A stretch of DNA of 64,000 nt from Nitrospira sp. (GTDB lineage: Bacteria; Nitrospirota; Nitrospiria; Nitrospirales; Nitrospiraceae): assembly GCA_024998565.1 (NCBI GenBank), contig JACOEM010000002.1:526522-590521 (forward strand), written 5' to 3'. A program made the translations under genes and the position numbers. The notes under the pieces are model-generated. The model saw only the letters and a list, made by a program, of their open reading frames with translations, was not told where the DNA came from and ran no database searches. This document shows, piece after piece, positions 28,417 through 58,526 of the stretch. Within the stretch, counting starts at the first letter, position 1; each line of letters starts with the position of its first letter.

Positions 28417-29274
28417 ATGATATCAGGCAATCTCGTGGATGCCAGCGTCCGCGCTCGGTTCGACCTCTCCGGCCGAGTCGCGGTCATCACCGGAGGCGGA
28501 GGCCTCTTGGGTGCGCAACATGCGGACGCGATCGCGGAGATGGGAGGGACTCCGGTCCTGCTCGATATCGACACGCGCCATGCGCAGGAAACTGCTGAGC
28601 GCGTGTCGAAGAAATACGGAGTTCCGGCCGTCGCACTCTCGGCTGATATCACGCAAGCGGAGTCGATCCTTGGAACCGTCCGGCAGGTGACCGAACGGTT
28701 CGGGCAGATCGATATTCTGATCAATAATGCCGCCCGTAATCCGAAGCAGGAACAACTCAACGGCGCGAATGAGGGTAGTTCCAGACTCGAAGGATTTTCG
28801 GTGACGAGCTGGAATGAAGACCTTGCCGTGGGTCTCACGGGCGCATTCCTTTGTAGTCAGTTGATCGGCCAGGAAATGGCTAAGCGCGGCAGGGGTGTGA
28901 TTCTGAATATCGCGTCCGATCTTGGAGTCATCGCCCCTGATCAGCGTATCTATCGACGCGCGGATCTGCCGGATCATCAACAACCGGTAAAGCCCGTCAG
29001 CTATTCTGTCGTCAAACACGGGTTGATCGGATTGACCCGATACCTCGCCACCTATTGGGCGGAACAAGGGGTGCGGGTCAATGCACTCTCCCCGGGAGGT
29101 GTTTACACCGGGCAGGATGAGGCATTTGTGGCCCGTCTGACTCACCTAATTCCCCTAGGACGGATGGCCAGACAGGATGAATATAAGGCGGCGGTCGTTT
29201 TTCTCGTGTCGGACGCTTCGTCCTATATGACGGGTACGAATATGATCATGGATGGAGGACGTACTGTATGGTAA
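28417..29274 (+). CDS. SDR-family oxidoreductase (PtmA-like position)
   Basis: 285 residues. The cofactor motif is 'VITGGGGLLGAQHA', then 'NNAARNP', and the catalytic YxxxK is present in 'VSYSVVKHGLIGLTRY'; the end 'MTGTNMIMDGGRTVW' is typical. Flagellar glycan loci of the Ptm type carry an SDR beside nonulosonate genes, and this gene has that position. It overlaps the phosphatase-isomerase gene by seven bases, so the two are translated together. Confidence 0.87.
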   Translation: MISGNLVDASVRARFDLSGRVAVITGGGGLLGAQHADAIAEMGGTPVLLDIDTRHAQETAERVSKKYGVPAVALSADITQAESILGTVRQVTERFGQIDILINNAARNPKQEQLNGANEGSSRLEGFSVTSWNEDLAVGLTGAFLCSQLIGQEMAKRGRGVILNIASDLGVIAPDQRIYRRADLPDHQQPVKPVSYSVVKHGLIGLTRYLATYWAEQGVRVNALSPGGVYTGQDEAFVARLTHLIPLGRMARQDEYKAAVVFLVSDASSYMTGTNMIMDGGRTVW

Positions 29275-30341
29275 CCACAATTCGGATGCTGGCATTGGAC
29301 ATCGATGGGGTGCTGACGGATGGCACAGCGTCCCTATCCGAGTCGGGTGATGAAGACAAACGGTATTGCTTTCAGGATCTTGACGCGGTGACACAAGCCA
29401 AACGCGCCGGTCTGACGGTCGCCCTCGTGACGGGCGAAGACACGCCCTCTGTCGATCGATTGGCGCGTCGTTTCAATTGCGATCTAGTGAGGCGGGGAGT
29501 GAAGGAGAAACTGCTCGCGCTGGAGGGGCTCGCGCGCGAATTGAACCTCCGGCTTGATGAGTTCTGCTATGTTGGCGACGGGGACCGGGATGCTTCGGCG
29601 CTACGGCATGTCGGCTTGGGCCTCGCCCCCCTGAATGCAACACGTTCGGCCAAAGCCGCCGCGCACCGCATTCTCTCCAAGCCGGGTGGAGCGGGGGCCG
29701 TCGCGGAAGCACTCGGCCTGATACGCCAGATTCACATGTTCGAGGAAAGCGCGAGTATTCTGGAAAAGGACATGTACGCGATCGCAAAAAATAGCCTCGA
29801 AGCACATCAGCGTCTCATCGAGTTGTCCTTGCCGACGCTCGTCAAAATCATGCAGGCCTTCGTCAGGACCATCCGCACCGGCAATAAGATTCTTCTGTTC
29901 GGCAACGGCGGCAGCGCCGCGGATGCCCAGCATGTGGCCGGTGAATTGGTCGGCCGTTTCTTGCGTGAAAGCGAGCCATGGCCGGTCATCGCCCTCACCA
30001 CGGATACCTCGATTCTCACCGCGGTCGGCAACGATTGGGAGTTCGCCGATGTGTTTGCCAGGCAGGTCCGCGCCTTGGCCAAACCAGGGGATCTCGTGGC
30101 GGGCATCAGCACAAGCGGCCGATCGGCCAACGTCATACGCGGCCTGCAGGCGGCGCGGGCGAAGGGAGCCGCAACGATCGGATTTACCGGCGCCGGCGGG
30201 GGAAGCCTTGCGGAGCATGCCGATCTTTGTTTCCGGGCGCCGGCAGATTCGACGCCGCGTATACAAGAATTGCATCTGCTCGCCTGGCATACGATCTGCG
30301 AGTTGGTTGAGCGAGAACTCCTGCGAACGACCGAAGCTTAA
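29268..30341 (+). CDS. KdsC-like HAD phosphatase fused to GmhA-like SIS isomerase
   Basis: 357 residues, two domains. Residues 1-150 are a KdsC-type HAD phosphatase: D11-x-D13 in 'ALDIDGVLTDG', 'LVTGEDTPSV' and 'YVGDGDRDASAL'. Residues about 165-357 are a sugar isomerase (SIS) domain of sedoheptulose-7-phosphate isomerase type: 'GNGGSAADAQHVAGELVGRF' with E226, 'GISTSGRSANV', and 'RIQELH' with H336. Catalytic residues of both halves look intact. KdsC-type phosphatases act on 3-deoxy-ulosonate phosphates, and GmhA converts a ketose-7-phosphate to an aldose. The fusion beside a NeuB-like synthase suggests that one protein serves two steps around it (inference). Confidence 0.85.
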   Translation: MVTTIRMLALDIDGVLTDGTASLSESGDEDKRYCFQDLDAVTQAKRAGLTVALVTGEDTPSVDRLARRFNCDLVRRGVKEKLLALEGLARELNLRLDEFCYVGDGDRDASALRHVGLGLAPLNATRSAKAAAHRILSKPGGAGAVAEALGLIRQIHMFEESASILEKDMYAIAKNSLEAHQRLIELSLPTLVKIMQAFVRTIRTGNKILLFGNGGSAADAQHVAGELVGRFLRESEPWPVIALTTDTSILTAVGNDWEFADVFARQVRALAKPGDLVAGISTSGRSANVIRGLQAARAKGAATIGFTGAGGGSLAEHADLCFRAPADSTPRIQELHLLAWHTICELVERELLRTTEA

Positions 30342-49409: not shown

Positions 49410-50471
49410 ATGCCACCTGAGAAGTCAACCAAAAATTTTCCGATAGAGGTGTCAGTAATCGTCCCTTGCCGAAACGAGGAGGATACGATCGCCGATTGCG
49501 TGAGCTCGATCCTTCAGCAAGAACCGGTGGGGGATGGAATGGAGTTGATCGTCGCAGACGGCCTCTCAACGGACAACACGCGCAATGTCCTGTGGGATAT
49601 CGCGCACCACGATCCCCGTGTTCGAGTCATCGAGAATCCAGGGCGTATAGTGTCGAGTGGATTGAACGCCGCTCTGGAGACAGCTCGTGGTGCGATCATC
49701 ATACGCATGGATGCCCACACGCTCTATGCTCCTGACTATATCAGGCAATGCATCGCTGCGCTTCGGGAAACGGGCGCCGAGAACGTCGGAGGTCCGGCGC
49801 TGACGAGCGGAGAAGGTTATTTCCAGACGGCCATTTCGGCCGCTTATCACTCACCGTTCGCCGTGGGTGGTGCACGATTTCACAATCCCGATTACGAAGG
49901 TTTTGTCGATACCGTTCCCTACGGATGCTGGCCACGCAGGGTTTTCTCGGAGATCGGTCTCTTTGATGAAGAGTTGGTCCGCAATCAGGACGATGAGTTT
50001 AATCTTCGGCTCATACGTTCGGGCGGCAAAATCTGGCAATCACCACGCATCAAGAGCTGGTACCGACCGCGAGGATCACTTCGGGATCTGTTTCGACAGT
50101 ACTGCCAGTATGGATACTGGAAAGTCCGCGTCATCCAAAAGCATCGACTTCCGGCCTCTATCCGGCATGTGATTCCTGGTCTGTCTCTATTGTCCTTGGC
50201 GGGGTTGTTTCTTCTCTCCTTGTGGTGGCGTCCCGCAATCTGGGTCTTGGCCACCGTGGTCGCCCTCTATGCCGCCGGCATACTCGGAGCGTCCCTCGTC
50301 ACGGCTGCTAAGCGCGGCTGGAAACTCCTTCCTGTTCTCCCCGTAGTGTTCGCTACCTACCATGTGAGTTACGGGCTTGGCTTCCTGCGCGGTCTGTGGG
50401 ATTTCGTAGTCATTCGCAGGGGACCGCAACAATCATTGTCCACACTGTCGCGGGGCCCCGCAGCACGGTAA
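49410..50471 (+). CDS. Family 2 glycosyltransferase, ExoA-like, membrane-attached
   Basis: 353 residues. 'VSVIVPCRNEEDTIADCV' starts the GT-A fold, 'IIRMDAHTLYAP' holds the metal-binding Asp, and 'ELVRNQDDEFNLRLIRSGG' is the acceptor signature. Two or three hydrophobic segments follow residue 250, as in succinoglycan ExoA. It opens the exosortase half of the locus and may build or elongate the glycan attached to PEP-CTERM-linked polysaccharide. Confidence 0.87.
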   Translation: MPPEKSTKNFPIEVSVIVPCRNEEDTIADCVSSILQQEPVGDGMELIVADGLSTDNTRNVLWDIAHHDPRVRVIENPGRIVSSGLNAALETARGAIIIRMDAHTLYAPDYIRQCIAALRETGAENVGGPALTSGEGYFQTAISAAYHSPFAVGGARFHNPDYEGFVDTVPYGCWPRRVFSEIGLFDEELVRNQDDEFNLRLIRSGGKIWQSPRIKSWYRPRGSLRDLFRQYCQYGYWKVRVIQKHRLPASIRHVIPGLSLLSLAGLFLLSLWWRPAIWVLATVVALYAAGILGASLVTAAKRGWKLLPVLPVVFATYHVSYGLGFLRGLWDFVVIRRGPQQSLSTLSRGPAAR

Positions 50472-50502: not shown

Positions 50503-52074
50503 ATGAGTCCTACTTTTGAAAAAATCCACCTGCCGTTTCCAGACTGGGGAAAAATCCTGAACACGTTCGAAGACCGGACGATCTTTCAGTCGCCGGCTTG
50601 GCTCGCATTCGTCACCAAGACGCAGAGGGCCGAACCTATTTTTGCCTGCCTCCGTGACGGAACCCGGACGTTGGGCTACTTCAGTGGACTGATCGTGAAA
50701 CGGTTCGGCCTCAAGATTCTCGGCAGCCCGCTGCCGGGTTGGACGACTTCATACATGGGCATGAATCTCCTGCCGGGCGTCTCGCGGCGTTCCGCACTGG
50801 AAGCCCTCCAGCGATTGGCGTTCGAGCGTTTGGGGTGCGTCCACATCGAAATGATGGATCGCAACCTGCGGGTCCAGGATGCCGACGGACTCGACTTTGA
50901 GTATCGAGAGTTCGGAGGGTTTGAAATCGACCTGACTCAGACCCTCGAACAGCTCTTCTCCAATATGGCGCCTGCCTGCCGGCGCTGTATCCGGCGAGCG
51001 GAAAAGAGCGGGGTCACCATCGAGGAGGCGCAGGATGCTGCCTTTGCCGGGGAGTATTATGCGCAGCTTCAAGAGGTGTTCCAAAAACGATCGTTAGTGC
51101 CGACATATGGTGTGGAACGGGTACGGGAATTGATCACCTGCTTGTCGGACACGGGCCAGTTGCTTCTCTTGCGCGCACGTGATCCTCAAGGTCGATGCAT
51201 CGCCACTGGGATTTTCCCGGCAATGAACACCACCATGTACTTCTGGGGAGGGGCCAGTTGGAGGGAATCGTTGGGCTCTCGACCGAATGAAGCGATTCAA
51301 TGGTACGCCATGCAGTATTGGAAGGCGAGAGGCATCCGGCGGTATGACATGGGAGGTGGTGGTGAATACAAACGGAAGTTTGGAGGCCGTGAGATCATGG
51401 TACCCTGGTTGCGTAAATCAAAGTATCCGGGATTGGCGTCCCTTCGCAACTTGACAAAACAGGTGGTTGGTTGGCGCCAGCGGATTGCCGGTCGGGTGGA
51501 GACCATCGCGGATCGACCCCGTTCATCAGCCGAATGGCCTGGATCGGCAGAGACTCAGGAGGATCCAGAAGTCCTCATGACCTTACCGGACAGTCACCGA
51601 AGGTTGTGTCATCGGGCTTTGTGCGAGGGTTCCCGTGATCCAAACATATTACATAAGGAGCGCATCATGACGTCGATCGTGCGCATTGTTGCTGTCGCGG
51701 CGGTATTCGTTACCGTACTTACGCTCCAAACATCGGGCGCTCAGGCGACACCTATCCTCTTGCCGGCAGTCAAGGCGGTCAATCCAGCGGCTGTGTTGCC
51801 CTTTGGGGCGACTACTCACAAAGCAACCTGGAACTGGTGGCCGAACTGGCAACAATTCCGTCAATACTGGAGCCAACGGACGAACTGGAGCTACGACACA
51901 AGAAGCGTTGCCCTGCCGGGGACGATCTTGCTCTTCGGCGCCGGCTTCGCCGGCTTGATCGGCTGGCGAAGCCGACATACTCGCCGCCGCAAATCGGTCG
52001 CGTATCGGCAGCAAGGGGTAACACCAGGCCGTCCGGCTCTGACTCCACCACCGGACGGCTCCCCCCTCTCCTGA
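50503..52074 (+). CDS. FemAB-like GNAT acyltransferase with a frame open into the downstream PEP-CTERM gene
   Basis: Residues 1 to about 350 form a GNAT/FemAB-like protein: 'FQSPAWLAFV', 'RRCIRRAEKSGV' and 'RRYDMGGGGEYKRKFGG'. Proteins of this type, adjacent to exosortase genes, are thought to add an acyl or aminoacyl group to a sugar or protein. The frame has no stop before the PEP-CTERM start at 51667 and continues to 52074, giving 523 codons. An out-of-frame TGA lies at 51578-51580, so a one-base indel may have removed the normal stop. Either it is a true fusion with an internal signal peptide, or the PEP-CTERM protein begins at its own ATG. Confidence 0.72.
   Translation: MSPTFEKIHLPFPDWGKILNTFEDRTIFQSPAWLAFVTKTQRAEPIFACLRDGTRTLGYFSGLIVKRFGLKILGSPLPGWTTSYMGMNLLPGVSRRSALEALQRLAFERLGCVHIEMMDRNLRVQDADGLDFEYREFGGFEIDLTQTLEQLFSNMAPACRRCIRRAEKSGVTIEEAQDAAFAGEYYAQLQEVFQKRSLVPTYGVERVRELITCLSDTGQLLLLRARDPQGRCIATGIFPAMNTTMYFWGGASWRESLGSRPNEAIQWYAMQYWKARGIRRYDMGGGGEYKRKFGGREIMVPWLRKSKYPGLASLRNLTKQVVGWRQRIAGRVETIADRPRSSAEWPGSAETQEDPEVLMTLPDSHRRLCHRALCEGSRDPNILHKERIMTSIVRIVAVAAVFVTVLTLQTSGAQATPILLPAVKAVNPAAVLPFGATTHKATWNWWPNWQQFRQYWSQRTNWSYDTRSVALPGTILLFGAGFAGLIGWRSRHTRRRKSVAYRQQGVTPGRPALTPPPDGSPLS
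51667..52074 (+). CDS. PEP-CTERM-type exosortase substrate
   Basis: 135 residues from an internal ATG with a good ribosome site (AAGGAGCGCATC). Residues 1-27 are a signal peptide ('VAVAAVFVTVLTL' then 'SGAQA'). A Trp-rich stretch ('WNWWPNW') follows. The C-terminal sorting signal is 'VALPGTILLFGAGFAGLIGW' then 'RSRHTRRR': motif, transmembrane helix, basic tail. The motif reads LPGT rather than PEP. Unusually, about 27 residues extend past the basic cluster, rich in Pro and Gly. The exosortase 47 bases downstream should cleave at the motif. Confidence 0.72.
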   Translation: MTSIVRIVAVAAVFVTVLTLQTSGAQATPILLPAVKAVNPAAVLPFGATTHKATWNWWPNWQQFRQYWSQRTNWSYDTRSVALPGTILLFGAGFAGLIGWRSRHTRRRKSVAYRQQGVTPGRPALTPPPDGSPLS

Positions 52075-53186: not shown

Positions 53187-54689
53187 GTGCTGTTTGGGGT
53201 CTATCTCACATACCTGCTCTTCTTTGCGTTGACGCCGTTTACGTTTCATATTCATTCGTCGGAACCACTTCTCACTCAGGTCCGGAACACGTTCGAGGGA
53301 TTCGAAGGTTTATCGAGTGCGACGCTGTGGGACGTTTGGACCAACCTCCTTTTGTTCGTGCCATTCGGTTTCTTGTTTCCGTCGCTGCCTGTCGTCGCCA
53401 CGCGGCCGTTGGCGACGAGGTTGCTGCTAGGCACCTCGTCGGCATGCCTGATGAGTGCGGGGATTGAATGCTTGCAGGTGCTGCTTCCCAGACATCCATC
53501 GATCAGTGACATTGTTTTAAATATCCTGGGGGCATTCGTCGGAGGGGTCGGCTACGTAGTTCACCGTTTGAGTCGCGCGCCTCGGCAAACCGATCGTCAC
53601 GCTTTCAGATCTGGAACGTCGTCGGTGCTTCCGCTTGTAAGTTACGCCTTGGCCTTGGGCCTTCTGTTTGGCGTCCCGTTTCCCCTCGCCAAGGATTTTT
53701 CCGAGTGGACCTCTGAATTCGATCTCTACCTCGGAAGCCAAGATGTTACAGAAAGGTCCTGGAGTGGTGAGATTTACCTCATTTCTCTCTACAACCGTGT
53801 GCTTCACCAAGCGGAGGTCAGAACGAATTTCTCTGCCGGTCCACATCGGGGATCAGGCTTGCCGCGGGTCGAGGAGGGGCAGCGTTTCAGCTATGATTTT
53901 TCTCGCACCGTTCGCGCTTCCGGAACCGGCATCGACGGTCCCGCAGTGCCGATCCACCTTGGGATCGAGGATTCGTCGAGGATCGAGTGGCTGACTCCGA
54001 ACGGTCTGGCGGTTCGAGATACCCGTGTGAGTCTCTTCTCGCGGCCCGTCGCGAGTCCTTCCGCAGGCCGATTTTTTGCCCACCGTCGTTTTTCTGTAGA
54101 GGCCTGGGTTGTGCCTTTCGATCGGCAGGACTGGGGGACTGCACGTCTTGTCTCCTACTCGACCAACCCTGAGCGCGGGGCCTTCGCGCTTACGGAGTGG
54201 AAACAGGAGGTTACCCTGTCCTTGGGACCCTTTCATGAAGGGGGGGGCTGGACCGTCCCGGTGGCAGGCTCCATGAACCAGGTATTGGGAACAGTCCCGC
54301 GGCACGTTGTGGTCAGCTACGATGATGGCTTGGAAACATCGTACGTGAATGGGATCGAAGTTGAACGTAGGTGGCAACGCTTCAAGAATGCCTCGATCGA
54401 CAGGCTCATTGGCTTCCTCGGACAGCCGTTTGCATGGCCCTTGTACTCCGCTCTCATGTTCCCGCTGGGGTACCTCACGTTTCGAGCGAACGTGCGGCAT
54501 CGGGGGATGATCCATTCGCGGTGGGTGTCATGTGCCGTTCCCGTAGTAAGCCTTACGTTTCTTCAAAGCGTTCGCAGTCTGGCCCTCAATGCTCCGATTG
54601 AACCCTCTCTTCTTCTCGTGGGAGCAGGTACCGTTTTGGCTTCAATGGTAATCGCGCCCCATCTGGCCGATCACCTCAACCCTCGCTGA
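53187..54689 (+). CDS. VanZ-like membrane protein fused to a LamG-type domain
   Basis: 500 residues. The N-terminal 130 residues are a VanZ-like domain with four hydrophobic helices and its two motifs ('LLLFVPFG' and 'ISDIVLNILGAFVGG'). Residues about 270-400 look like a concanavalin/LamG-type carbohydrate-binding domain ('FSVEAWVVPF', 'HVVVSYDDGLETSYVNGIEVER'), and three helices follow at the C-terminus. The GTG at 53187 has GGAGG a few bases upstream. VanZ proteins near exosortases are common; a glycan-binding module inside one is unusual. Its function is unknown. Confidence 0.77.
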   Translation: MLFGVYLTYLLFFALTPFTFHIHSSEPLLTQVRNTFEGFEGLSSATLWDVWTNLLLFVPFGFLFPSLPVVATRPLATRLLLGTSSACLMSAGIECLQVLLPRHPSISDIVLNILGAFVGGVGYVVHRLSRAPRQTDRHAFRSGTSSVLPLVSYALALGLLFGVPFPLAKDFSEWTSEFDLYLGSQDVTERSWSGEIYLISLYNRVLHQAEVRTNFSAGPHRGSGLPRVEEGQRFSYDFSRTVRASGTGIDGPAVPIHLGIEDSSRIEWLTPNGLAVRDTRVSLFSRPVASPSAGRFFAHRRFSVEAWVVPFDRQDWGTARLVSYSTNPERGAFALTEWKQEVTLSLGPFHEGGGWTVPVAGSMNQVLGTVPRHVVVSYDDGLETSYVNGIEVERRWQRFKNASIDRLIGFLGQPFAWPLYSALMFPLGYLTFRANVRHRGMIHSRWVSCAVPVVSLTFLQSVRSLALNAPIEPSLLLVGAGTVLASMVIAPHLADHLNPR

Positions 54690-54771: not shown

Positions 54772-55926
54772 ATGACACAATTCTTGCCGTTTCACCTCCC
54801 TGATATCGGGGAGGAGGAAATCGATGCCGTAGTCTCAGTTCTGCGGTCCGGTTGGTTGACCACGGGGGCAAGGGCCAAGCAGTTCGAGCAGGATTTTGCA
54901 GCCATGGTAGGCGCCCGTTTTGCCATCGCGGTCAATTCCTGCACCGCCGCGCTCCACCTTGCGCTTGAAGCCATCGGGATCGAGGAGGGCGATGAGGTTA
55001 TTCTCCCCACGATGACCTTTACGGCAACAGCCGAGGTCGTGACCTATTTCAAAGCCAAGCCTGTTTTGGTGGATTGCCTTCCGGATACGTTGAATATCGA
55101 TCCCGACCAGATCGAGCGAGCCATCACGTCGAAAACGAAAGCCATTATCCCGGTGCACTTTGCAGGACATCCCTGTGACATGGATCGCATTTCGGACATC
55201 GCAAATCGATACGGGCTCCGTGTCATCGAAGATGCGGCCCATGCGCTCCCGGCCCGCTATCGAGGACGGTTGATCGGCACCATCAGCGACTGCACCTGCT
55301 TTTCCTTCTATGCCACGAAGAACATCACCACCGGTGAAGGCGGCATGATTACGACCGACAATCCCGAGTGGGCGGAACGAATCCGGACCATGAGTCTCCA
55401 TGGGCTGAGTCGTGATGCGTGGAAGCGATACGACGGTCACGGTTCATGGTTTTATGAAGTCCTCTCGCCGGGCTTCAAATACAATCTCACCGACATTGCT
55501 GCAGCCCTGGGTATTGCACAGCTCCACAAATCCGATCGTCTCTGGAAGACACGGGAACGGTATGCGGGTCTCTACGACGAAGGGTTTCGGGATCTCCCTG
55601 AAATCGTGCTTCCCACCGCGGCGGCTCATGTCCAACATGCATGGCACTTGTATGTCATTCGGCTGGACCCCGAACGGTCGGGGATCGGACGAGACCGGTT
55701 GATTGAGCATCTGGGGAAGGAGCACATCGGTTGTAGCGTCCATTTTATCCCGCTCCATCTTCACCCGTACTACCGCGACACCTGGGGTTATACCTCCGAG
55801 CAATTCCCGGTCGCCACGACTGCCTACCAGCAGATTGTGTCGCTGCCGCTCTACCCCAAGATGACCGAAACCGATATCCAACGTGTCATTTCAGTCGTTC
55901 GCACACTCATTCAAGGTTCCCGATGA
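54772..55926 (+). CDS. DegT/StrS-family sugar aminotransferase (PglE/LegC-like)
   Basis: 384 residues. The PLP lysine is in 'FSFYATKNITTGEGG' and the pyridine aspartate in 'VIEDAAHALPARY'. GGAAGGA precedes the ATG at 54772; earlier starts (54718, 54745) lack one. It overlaps the next gene, whose C-terminal part is a UDP-sugar 4,6-dehydratase. Dehydratase plus aminotransferase would make a UDP-4-amino-4,6-dideoxy-HexNAc, the precursor of bacillosamine or legionaminic acid. This could supply the nonulosonate modules in the same locus (inference). Confidence 0.88.
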   Translation: MTQFLPFHLPDIGEEEIDAVVSVLRSGWLTTGARAKQFEQDFAAMVGARFAIAVNSCTAALHLALEAIGIEEGDEVILPTMTFTATAEVVTYFKAKPVLVDCLPDTLNIDPDQIERAITSKTKAIIPVHFAGHPCDMDRISDIANRYGLRVIEDAAHALPARYRGRLIGTISDCTCFSFYATKNITTGEGGMITTDNPEWAERIRTMSLHGLSRDAWKRYDGHGSWFYEVLSPGFKYNLTDIAAALGIAQLHKSDRLWKTRERYAGLYDEGFRDLPEIVLPTAAAHVQHAWHLYVIRLDPERSGIGRDRLIEHLGKEHIGCSVHFIPLHLHPYYRDTWGYTSEQFPVATTAYQQIVSLPLYPKMTETDIQRVISVVRTLIQGSR

Positions 55927-58526
55927 TGATGAAACGAGCCATTGATCTCTTCGTTGCCGCGATCGGCCTATTGGCATTATCGCCGCTGTTCTTGCTGATT
56001 GCCATTCTGGTCAAGCTGGACTCTTCCGGGCCGGTCTTCTTTGGACAGGTTCGGATCGGTAGACGGTTTCGCCCGTTCCGAATCTATAAGTTTCGTACGA
56101 TGACCAGAGACGCCTCGTCGAATGGGGGCCAGCTGACGATTGGAGAGGATGCTCGCATCACTCGAGTCGGTCGGGTGTTACGTCGGCACAAGATCGATGA
56201 GTTGCCTCAGCTGCTGAACATCCTGCTGGGTGATATGAGCCTGGTGGGTCCTAGGCCGGAAGTTCCGCAGTATGTCGAATTGTTCAAGACCGACTACAGT
56301 GAAATTTTATCTGTACGTCCGGGGCTCACCGATCTGGCCTCGGTTAAGTACGTCGACGAAGCGACGATTCTGGCCGCGGCACGTGATCCGGAAGACGAGT
56401 ATCGAACAGTCATTCTTCCTGAGAAAATCCGCCTGGCTAAGCTGTATGTCCGCAATGCCTCATTGAGATTTGATGTGGCCATTATCGCGCAAACCGTCTT
56501 CCGACTGACTGGCCTGCCTCTCGTCCTGTGCGAGATACCTGAACTTCAATCTTCGCATGAACACTCCTTTGGAGAGGCCGTATCCAGAGCGATTGCCTGG
56601 TTGATTCGATGGCGGCGACCCCTGATCGTCGTGGTGGACCTTGCCCTCATTGTCTGCGCCAACTATCTGGCCTTTTTGTTACGCTTCGACGGAAGCCTTT
56701 CGGAGTCTGAGACACAACTGTTTGTTCAGGTGCTTCCCTGGCTCCTAGCCATAAGGGGAGGCGCGTTTATGTTGTTTAGTCTCAACGAAGGGCTCTGGCG
56801 ATACACGGGGATATGGGATTTGCAACGGATTGTCAGTGGCGTCTTCATCAGTACCTTGGCCGTCTACGGCCTCGTCTATTGGGGGCTCGGGTTGACCGCG
56901 TACCCTCGTTCGATTCTGATCATCGACAGCGTATTGTTAATCGGGCTTGTCACCGGGATCCGGCTGCCGTCCCGATTACTGGGAGAAAAACTCGTCTATC
57001 GCCACAAGAAGAACGTGCTCATTGTCGGCGCGGGGCATTCCGGCGAGCGGATCGTGCGGGAAATGAAAACGAACAGTTCCTCTCGGTATCAACCGGTGGG
57101 ACTCATCGACGATAATGTGTCCCTCCTCAACAAGCGGATTCATGGAGTCAAAGTGCTCGGAACCCGCAGCGACCTGCCTCGACTGCTCGCTGAGAAGCAA
57201 GTCGTGGAGGTTGTTCTGGCCTTGTCGAATGCCAAGCCGGCGCTTCTGAGAGAAATCATCTCTGCTCTTGAGCCGTTCAAGGTCTCCATCAAGACCCTGC
57301 CGAATTTGTCCGATCTTCTCGCTGATCGAAGTGCAGAAAGTCAGATGCGAAGCGTGTCTATGAGCGATCTGCTGCCGCGGGCTGCTGTGAATTCACAGGC
57401 CGATGCGATGAGGCACATGATTCAGGGAAAGTGCGTGTTGATCACGGGAGCCGGCGGTTCCATTGGATCGGAATTGTCGCGGCAAGTCGCCGCCCTGAGC
57501 CCGGAGTCGCTCGTCCTCTATGAGCGCCATGAAAACAGTCTCTACTTGATTGCCAAGGAGTTGGATGATCAGGGCCTTGGATCCTTTGTCCATCCGGTCC
57601 TCGGCGATGTGACGGATGTCGCTCGACTCTCTTCCACGGTCACCAAATACCGGCCGACCATTTTCTTCCATGCCGCTGCACACAAGCATGTACCGCTCGT
57701 TGAACTGAATCCGGCGGAAGCCCTCAAGAATAACTGTATGGGGACACGAATGGTCGCGGAGGTGGCCGCCCGGTTCGGTGTGGAGCGATTCGTCCTTATT
57801 TCCACGGACAAAGCCGTGAACCCATCGAGTGTCATGGGAGCCACCAAACGTGTAGCGGAGCTCATCGTCCAAGGGATCGCCCGGCAGAGCAAGACGCGTT
57901 TCATCACCGTCAGGTTTGGGAACGTACTCGGGAGTAACGGGAGCGTCCTCTTGCGATTCCAGGAACAAATTCGGGCCGGCGGTCCTGTCACGGTCACCGA
58001 TCCAGGAGTGCGGCGGTACTTCATGCTCATTCCCGAAGCCGTGCACCTGGTATTGCAGGCCGCCTCACTAGGGGAGCAAGGTGCGACGTACATTTTGAAC
58101 ATGGGAGAACAGATCAGTGTCTTAGACCTTGCAAGGAACTTGATCCGGCTGTCTGGATTCGTGCCTGGCCAGGAAATTCCGATCCAATTCGTTGGGTTAC
58201 GCCCAGGGGAAAAGCTCTCTGAAGAACTTGTCGGAGAAGGGGAGGCCACTGAGCCGTCCCCGATCGAGAACATTCTCAGAATTCGCCGCATTGCTCCGAT
58301 TGATTTCGACAATTTGCAGAATAAGGTGACGGCTTTGGAAGCAGCCGCCCGTCTGAACCACACCACGTGGGCCATCGATCGGTTACGGGAACTGGTTCCA
58401 GAGTTTCACTCTCCCGGGGAACTGGAGAGTGTGTCTGTTACGGCTATGCCCGCGGTGATGGAGGATCTCGGTGTTTCCCGGAAGACGGACTCACTGGTGG
58501 AGTCCGGTGCAACTCCTTCGGTATAA
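55923..58526 (+). CDS. Fusion of phosphoglycosyl transferase and UDP-sugar 4,6-dehydratase (PglC/WcaJ-like + WbpM/CapD-like)
   Basis: 867 residues. Residues 1-205 are a small monotopic phosphoglycosyl transferase: re-entrant N-terminal helix and 'HKIDELPQLLN' with the catalytic D92-E93, then 'MSLVGPRPE'. Residues about 230-360 are four helices, and about 370-800 are a CapD/WbpM-type dehydratase: NAD motif 'ITGAGGSIGSE' (from residue 507), 'STDKAVNPSS' (D629, K630) and 'VMGATKR' with Met638 at the usual Tyr position, as in WbpM/PglF. One chain would thus make the UDP-4-keto sugar and start glycan assembly by transferring the finished sugar-phosphate to undecaprenyl phosphate. Confidence 0.88.
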   Translation: MMMKRAIDLFVAAIGLLALSPLFLLIAILVKLDSSGPVFFGQVRIGRRFRPFRIYKFRTMTRDASSNGGQLTIGEDARITRVGRVLRRHKIDELPQLLNILLGDMSLVGPRPEVPQYVELFKTDYSEILSVRPGLTDLASVKYVDEATILAAARDPEDEYRTVILPEKIRLAKLYVRNASLRFDVAIIAQTVFRLTGLPLVLCEIPELQSSHEHSFGEAVSRAIAWLIRWRRPLIVVVDLALIVCANYLAFLLRFDGSLSESETQLFVQVLPWLLAIRGGAFMLFSLNEGLWRYTGIWDLQRIVSGVFISTLAVYGLVYWGLGLTAYPRSILIIDSVLLIGLVTGIRLPSRLLGEKLVYRHKKNVLIVGAGHSGERIVREMKTNSSSRYQPVGLIDDNVSLLNKRIHGVKVLGTRSDLPRLLAEKQVVEVVLALSNAKPALLREIISALEPFKVSIKTLPNLSDLLADRSAESQMRSVSMSDLLPRAAVNSQADAMRHMIQGKCVLITGAGGSIGSELSRQVAALSPESLVLYERHENSLYLIAKELDDQGLGSFVHPVLGDVTDVARLSSTVTKYRPTIFFHAAAHKHVPLVELNPAEALKNNCMGTRMVAEVAARFGVERFVLISTDKAVNPSSVMGATKRVAELIVQGIARQSKTRFITVRFGNVLGSNGSVLLRFQEQIRAGGPVTVTDPGVRRYFMLIPEAVHLVLQAASLGEQGATYILNMGEQISVLDLARNLIRLSGFVPGQEIPIQFVGLRPGEKLSEELVGEGEATEPSPIENILRIRRIAPIDFDNLQNKVTALEAAARLNHTTWAIDRLRELVPEFHSPGELESVSVTAMPAVMEDLGVSRKTDSLVESGATPSV

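Follow-up and report, generated by a model that had tools for sequence, protein, structure and literature searches.

In the PEP-CTERM/exosortase system, 87% of the PEP-CTERM proteins have fewer than 10 residues after the domain, and those with long tails have been suspected to be non-functional (Haft 2006, PMC1569441). A locus of Nitrospira sp., found in a 64,000-nucleotide stretch of contig JACOEM010000002.1 (the window, which means the whole stretch analysed), resembles this system in having a signal peptide, a candidate sorting motif followed by a transmembrane (TM) helix and a basic cluster, and a neighbouring XrtA-type exosortase. It differs in that the motif is VALPGT, not PEP, and in that 26 residues follow the basic cluster, where mostly fewer than 10 follow the domain elsewhere. 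The preceding gene encodes a putative acyltransferase to be compared with the FemX/FemAB non-ribosomal peptidyltransferases (PF02388/PF13480; structures 6snr and 1ne9). As a pair, the two genes can be set beside run-on or fused gene pairs that arise through stop-codon loss, with which they share co-directional neighbours, one substitution and a short in-phase spacer; nothing essential separates the window from these, and it represents an ordinary case.

Positions 50503 to 52074 (plus strand) read as a single open frame of 523 codons beginning with ATG. The start of the PEP-CTERM gene, at 51667, is codon 389 of this frame, so that 388 codons without a stop precede it in the same frame, as an earlier note on this DNA had reported; every coordinate given in that note proved correct. 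With a probability of about 80%, the comparisons below indicate that the FemAB stop was lost when a base was substituted near 51604 (a relative has TAG, the window TTG), leaving a lineage-specific run-on between two still separate genes. The features of the locus are as follows.

49410-50471, plus strand: family 2 glycosyltransferase, upstream (PF00535, E 4e-27); its orthologues lie directly upstream of FemAB in relatives G010 (L045) and G018 (L011)
50503-51510, plus strand: FemAB/FemX-like acyltransferase, folded domain, residues 1-336 (PF13480, structure model, Foldseek)
51511-51603, plus strand: FemAB C-terminal tail, codons 337-367, weakly conserved and predicted disordered (dN/dS, pLDDT <50)
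51604-51606, plus strand: site of the missing FemAB stop, codon 368, TTG in the window and TAG in G010 (gapless codon alignment)
51607-51666, plus strand: probable former intergenic spacer, open by chance in the run-on frame; the first ~34 bases have an alignable counterpart in the untranslated G010 sequence past the TAG
51655-51660, plus strand: Shine-Dalgarno-like AAGGAG, read directly, 6 nt before the PEP-CTERM ATG; the G018 counterpart is GGAG
51667-52074, plus strand: PEP-CTERM cargo gene, 135 aa, with a signal peptide ending in AQA, a VALPGTILLF motif, a TM helix, an RHTRRRK basic cluster and an overlong tail
51994-52074, plus strand: surplus codons past the basic cluster (~26 and the stop), running through the intergenic hairpin (tail comparison; the hairpin recurs in noncoding G010 sequence)
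52028-52059, plus strand: GC-rich inverted repeat, GCCGTCCGG...CCGGACGGC, unique in the genome
52121-53047, plus strand: exosortase, XrtA type (TIGR03109, 214.5 bits; cut-off 208)
53187-54689, plus strand: VanZ-like plus LamG-like protein (PF04892, PF13385), with orthologues in G010 and G018

The FemAB and PEP-CTERM genes belong to an exopolysaccharide/exosortase cluster. A search of the genus revealed the same locus order (glycosyltransferase, FemAB, PEP-CTERM slot, exosortase, VanZ-like) in G010 and G018, the only two close relatives with the locus, which are ~90-94% identical to the window over the core. Two other ORFs of the window each match two families: the one at 29268-30341, in a nonulosonic acid cluster, is an apparent fusion, its residues 5-153 matching a KdsC-type phosphatase and residues 171-355 a phosphoheptose isomerase, and an 867-aa ORF at 55923-58526 has a sugar-phosphate transferase end (residues 2-195) and a PseB-like dehydratase (499-786).

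PF13480 covers residues 159-289 of the 523-aa ORF (E 5.4e-15, 56 bits against a cut-off of 22). PF02388 scores 24.7 bits for the 388-aa FemAB part, against a cut-off of 24, and 23.6 with the run-on. The structure model has pLDDT values of mostly 60-93 up to about residue 336, for the most part above 70 within the domain, and an overall pTM of 0.58, while residues 337-523 are below 50, the PEP-CTERM part having no aligned relatives there. Its double-GNAT fold finds FemX 6snr (E 1.5e-16), 1ne9 and relatives as the best Foldseek matches. Residues 1-336 are thus predicted to adopt a FemX-like double GNAT fold and to constitute a putative aminoacyl transferase; the two-GNAT fold of the model is shared with the FemX/FemAB peptidyltransferases, but identity is only 14% and PF02388 is reached at threshold only. 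The protein also shows weak similarity over residues 15-287 to TIGR03019 (FemAB family, XrtA/PEP-CTERM system-associated) and likewise lies in an exosortase locus; at 27.6-28.7 bits against a cut-off of 260.35 it is not a member. A genuine TIGR03019 member (390 bits) is encoded elsewhere on the same contig.

The alignment of the window with G010 contains no gap in the 379 codons (1137 bases) counted from the FemAB start. Past its TAG, G010 can still be aligned for ~34 bases, all of them untranslated spacer, before similarity is lost. The FemAB gene of G018 ends at a TGA equivalent to codon 356, 12 codons before the TAG of G010; this stop is followed, after 98 nt, by a separate PEP-CTERM homologue that has a ribosome site of its own. 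The earlier note had supposed that a point indel removed the FemAB stop. Loss of the stop is borne out; the indel is not supported, since the window and G010 differ at the stop site by a one-base substitution (TAG to TTG) within a gapless frame. Under the indel version, the TGA at 51578-51580, which direct reading confirms to be out of frame, would have been shifted there by the indel. An in-frame TGTGACC of G018 can indeed be aligned to CATGACC of the window with a 4-base gap, but the alignment is ambiguous in that stretch (58% over the last FemAB codons, where a small indel is allowed), and the collinear G010 has no TGA there, keeps the frame of the window and reaches its TAG at codon 368. 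An indel at 51578 is therefore a distinctly improbable origin. The expectation of a stop near 51578 in homologues holds for G018, where TGA occurs in frame at the positions matching codons 356 and 358 (51568, 51574), and fails for G010, which has none.

The reverse change, gain of a stop in G010, is to be weighed against loss in the window by parsimony with distant homologues, because only two close relatives carry the locus. Across the family, 14 homologous loci in 13 genomes all have a terminated FemAB gene, 343-392 residues from the start, and none of the 14 has a PEP-CTERM domain attached; in G165 a terminated FemAB is followed by a PEP-CTERM gene. The fused architecture was found neither in these loci nor among 395 genomes of the phylum, in which only two further genomes have homologues. 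The one long open frame there, of 541 aa in G434 (L078), proved to be a spurious upstream extension. Among the papers searched, none treats exosortase, PEP-CTERM and FemAB jointly.

These findings bear on the other proposal of the earlier note, that a genuine fused acyltransferase-substrate protein is made. Such a fusion would tether FemAB at the membrane beside the exosortase substrate, and the continuous frame, the plausible topology (residues 388-410 and 469-490 are hydrophobic) and the adjacency of both genes in G018 and G165 are consistent with it. The architecture is not conserved, however: both G010 and G018 carry stops between the genes, an outcome that the earlier note had itself named as refuting, the PEP-CTERM gene still has a start and a signal peptide of its own, the linker is fast-evolving and predicted to be disordered, and the slot in G010 holds different PEP-CTERM proteins. 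A functional fusion is highly improbable, and the locus looks like an ordinary sequence change in a single lineage and not a conserved enzyme-substrate protein.

The end of the FemAB gene is weakly constrained. Between the window and G010, dN/dS is ~0.11 in the core (codons 1-333) and ~0.41 in the tail (codons 334-367), and amino-acid changes make up a larger share of the differences in the tail (Fisher p 0.018). Among the family loci the C-termini extend 10 to 61 residues beyond the core. Genome G104 contains two FemAB copies (L047, L048) of ~343 and 392 aa, with stops ~49 codons apart and recognisably homologous 3' sequences, which are an independent case of FemAB stop drift. Because homologue C-termini vary and these two copies differ by ~49 residues, the gene end drifts easily. 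After loss of the stop, a run of 21 codons drawn at random from the local composition remains free of stops 33-42% of the time, and with one frame in three fitting, the chance of a run-on that is both open and in phase with the PEP-CTERM gene is ~0.11-0.14; no special cause is required. On this reading, with the acyltransferase stop substituted and the 20 spacer codons free of stops and in phase, two genes now form one open frame.

The start of the PEP-CTERM gene is as the earlier note described it: the ribosome site listed above is followed by a hydrophobic segment and an AQA site with which the separate ORF begins, as judged by reading the sequence. The PEP-CTERM match at residues 472-491 of the 523-aa ORF is below threshold in Pfam; the separate protein scores 20.4 bits with PF07589 (cut-off 20.7), the order of elements being present and the tail overlong. 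The note was also right that the tail is abnormal. The stretch between the PGT of the sorting motif and the stop measures 52 residues in the window and ~22-32 in ~20 related Nitrospira PEP-CTERM proteins, an excess of ~20 residues. The G018 product can be aligned with that of the window from its start as far as the basic cluster, where it terminates with the typical end RKQRKR. As the surplus codons cross a hairpin found in noncoding sequence in G010, the long tail is a run-on as well, which either a substitution or a frameshift may have caused. If a single frameshift were its origin, frame +1 would reach a TAA immediately ahead of the hairpin; the relatives align poorly in this part.

The hairpin at 52028-52059 was considered as a genome-wide repeat and rejected, being single-copy in this genome. 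In G010 there are two diverged copies, one directly before the exosortase; between the inverted repeat of the window and those of G010 (L045, 3550-3640 and 4200-4300) the stem is kept and the loop differs. The exosortase-proximal copies have fold z values of -2.5 and -3.7, and the element is possibly a cis element, or a terminator without a T run. An Rfam search gave no matches. No intrinsic terminator or sigma-70 promoter was found between the FemAB and PEP-CTERM genes, counts not being above those of shuffles.

Stops are missing in both genes, a coincidence that loss of the FemAB stop by substitution explains incompletely. It could be taken as a sign that a sequencing or consensus error created the run-on and that the organism has a normal stop: the assembly has 19 contigs, a single wrong base at 51604 would be enough, and the two anomalies fall inside 500 bases. 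Polished assemblies, however, rarely carry isolated substitution errors, and because of this and of the intact FemAB frame, gapless against G010 through codon 379, an assembly error is the less likely; the surroundings, moreover, differ by many natural substitutions. We regard such an error as unlikely.

Both genes probably still give rise to a product each. The main source of the PEP-CTERM protein would most likely remain the gene's own start at 51667 with its ribosome site, and ribosomes coming from FemAB would read through to give some 523-residue product. In that product the PEP-CTERM signal peptide would serve as an internal signal-anchor, with FemAB remaining cytoplasmic. Signal peptidase could cleave after AQA, yielding a normal PEP-CTERM precursor. 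From this the adjacent exosortase would remove the C-terminal anchor together with the overlong tail. As the two enzymes would free the cargo and discard the tail, loss of the stop may be nearly neutral. That the run-on is translated and used in this lineage, as a FemX-type transferase joined to exosortase cargo and cut by signal peptidase and exosortase, is scarcely probable; if it were, enzyme and substrate would reach the membrane together.

In G010 (L045, 3109-4280) the cargo slot contains two different short PEP-CTERM genes with a 3' remnant of the window's gene between them, ending in a stop after WRS. Automatic annotation of the window would report one 523-residue fusion, whereas comparison reveals two genes joined by the absence of a stop. 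The PEP-CTERM cargo slot, which in Nitrospira has a FemX-like transferase on one side and an exosortase on the other, appears to change rapidly through turnover of its cargo.
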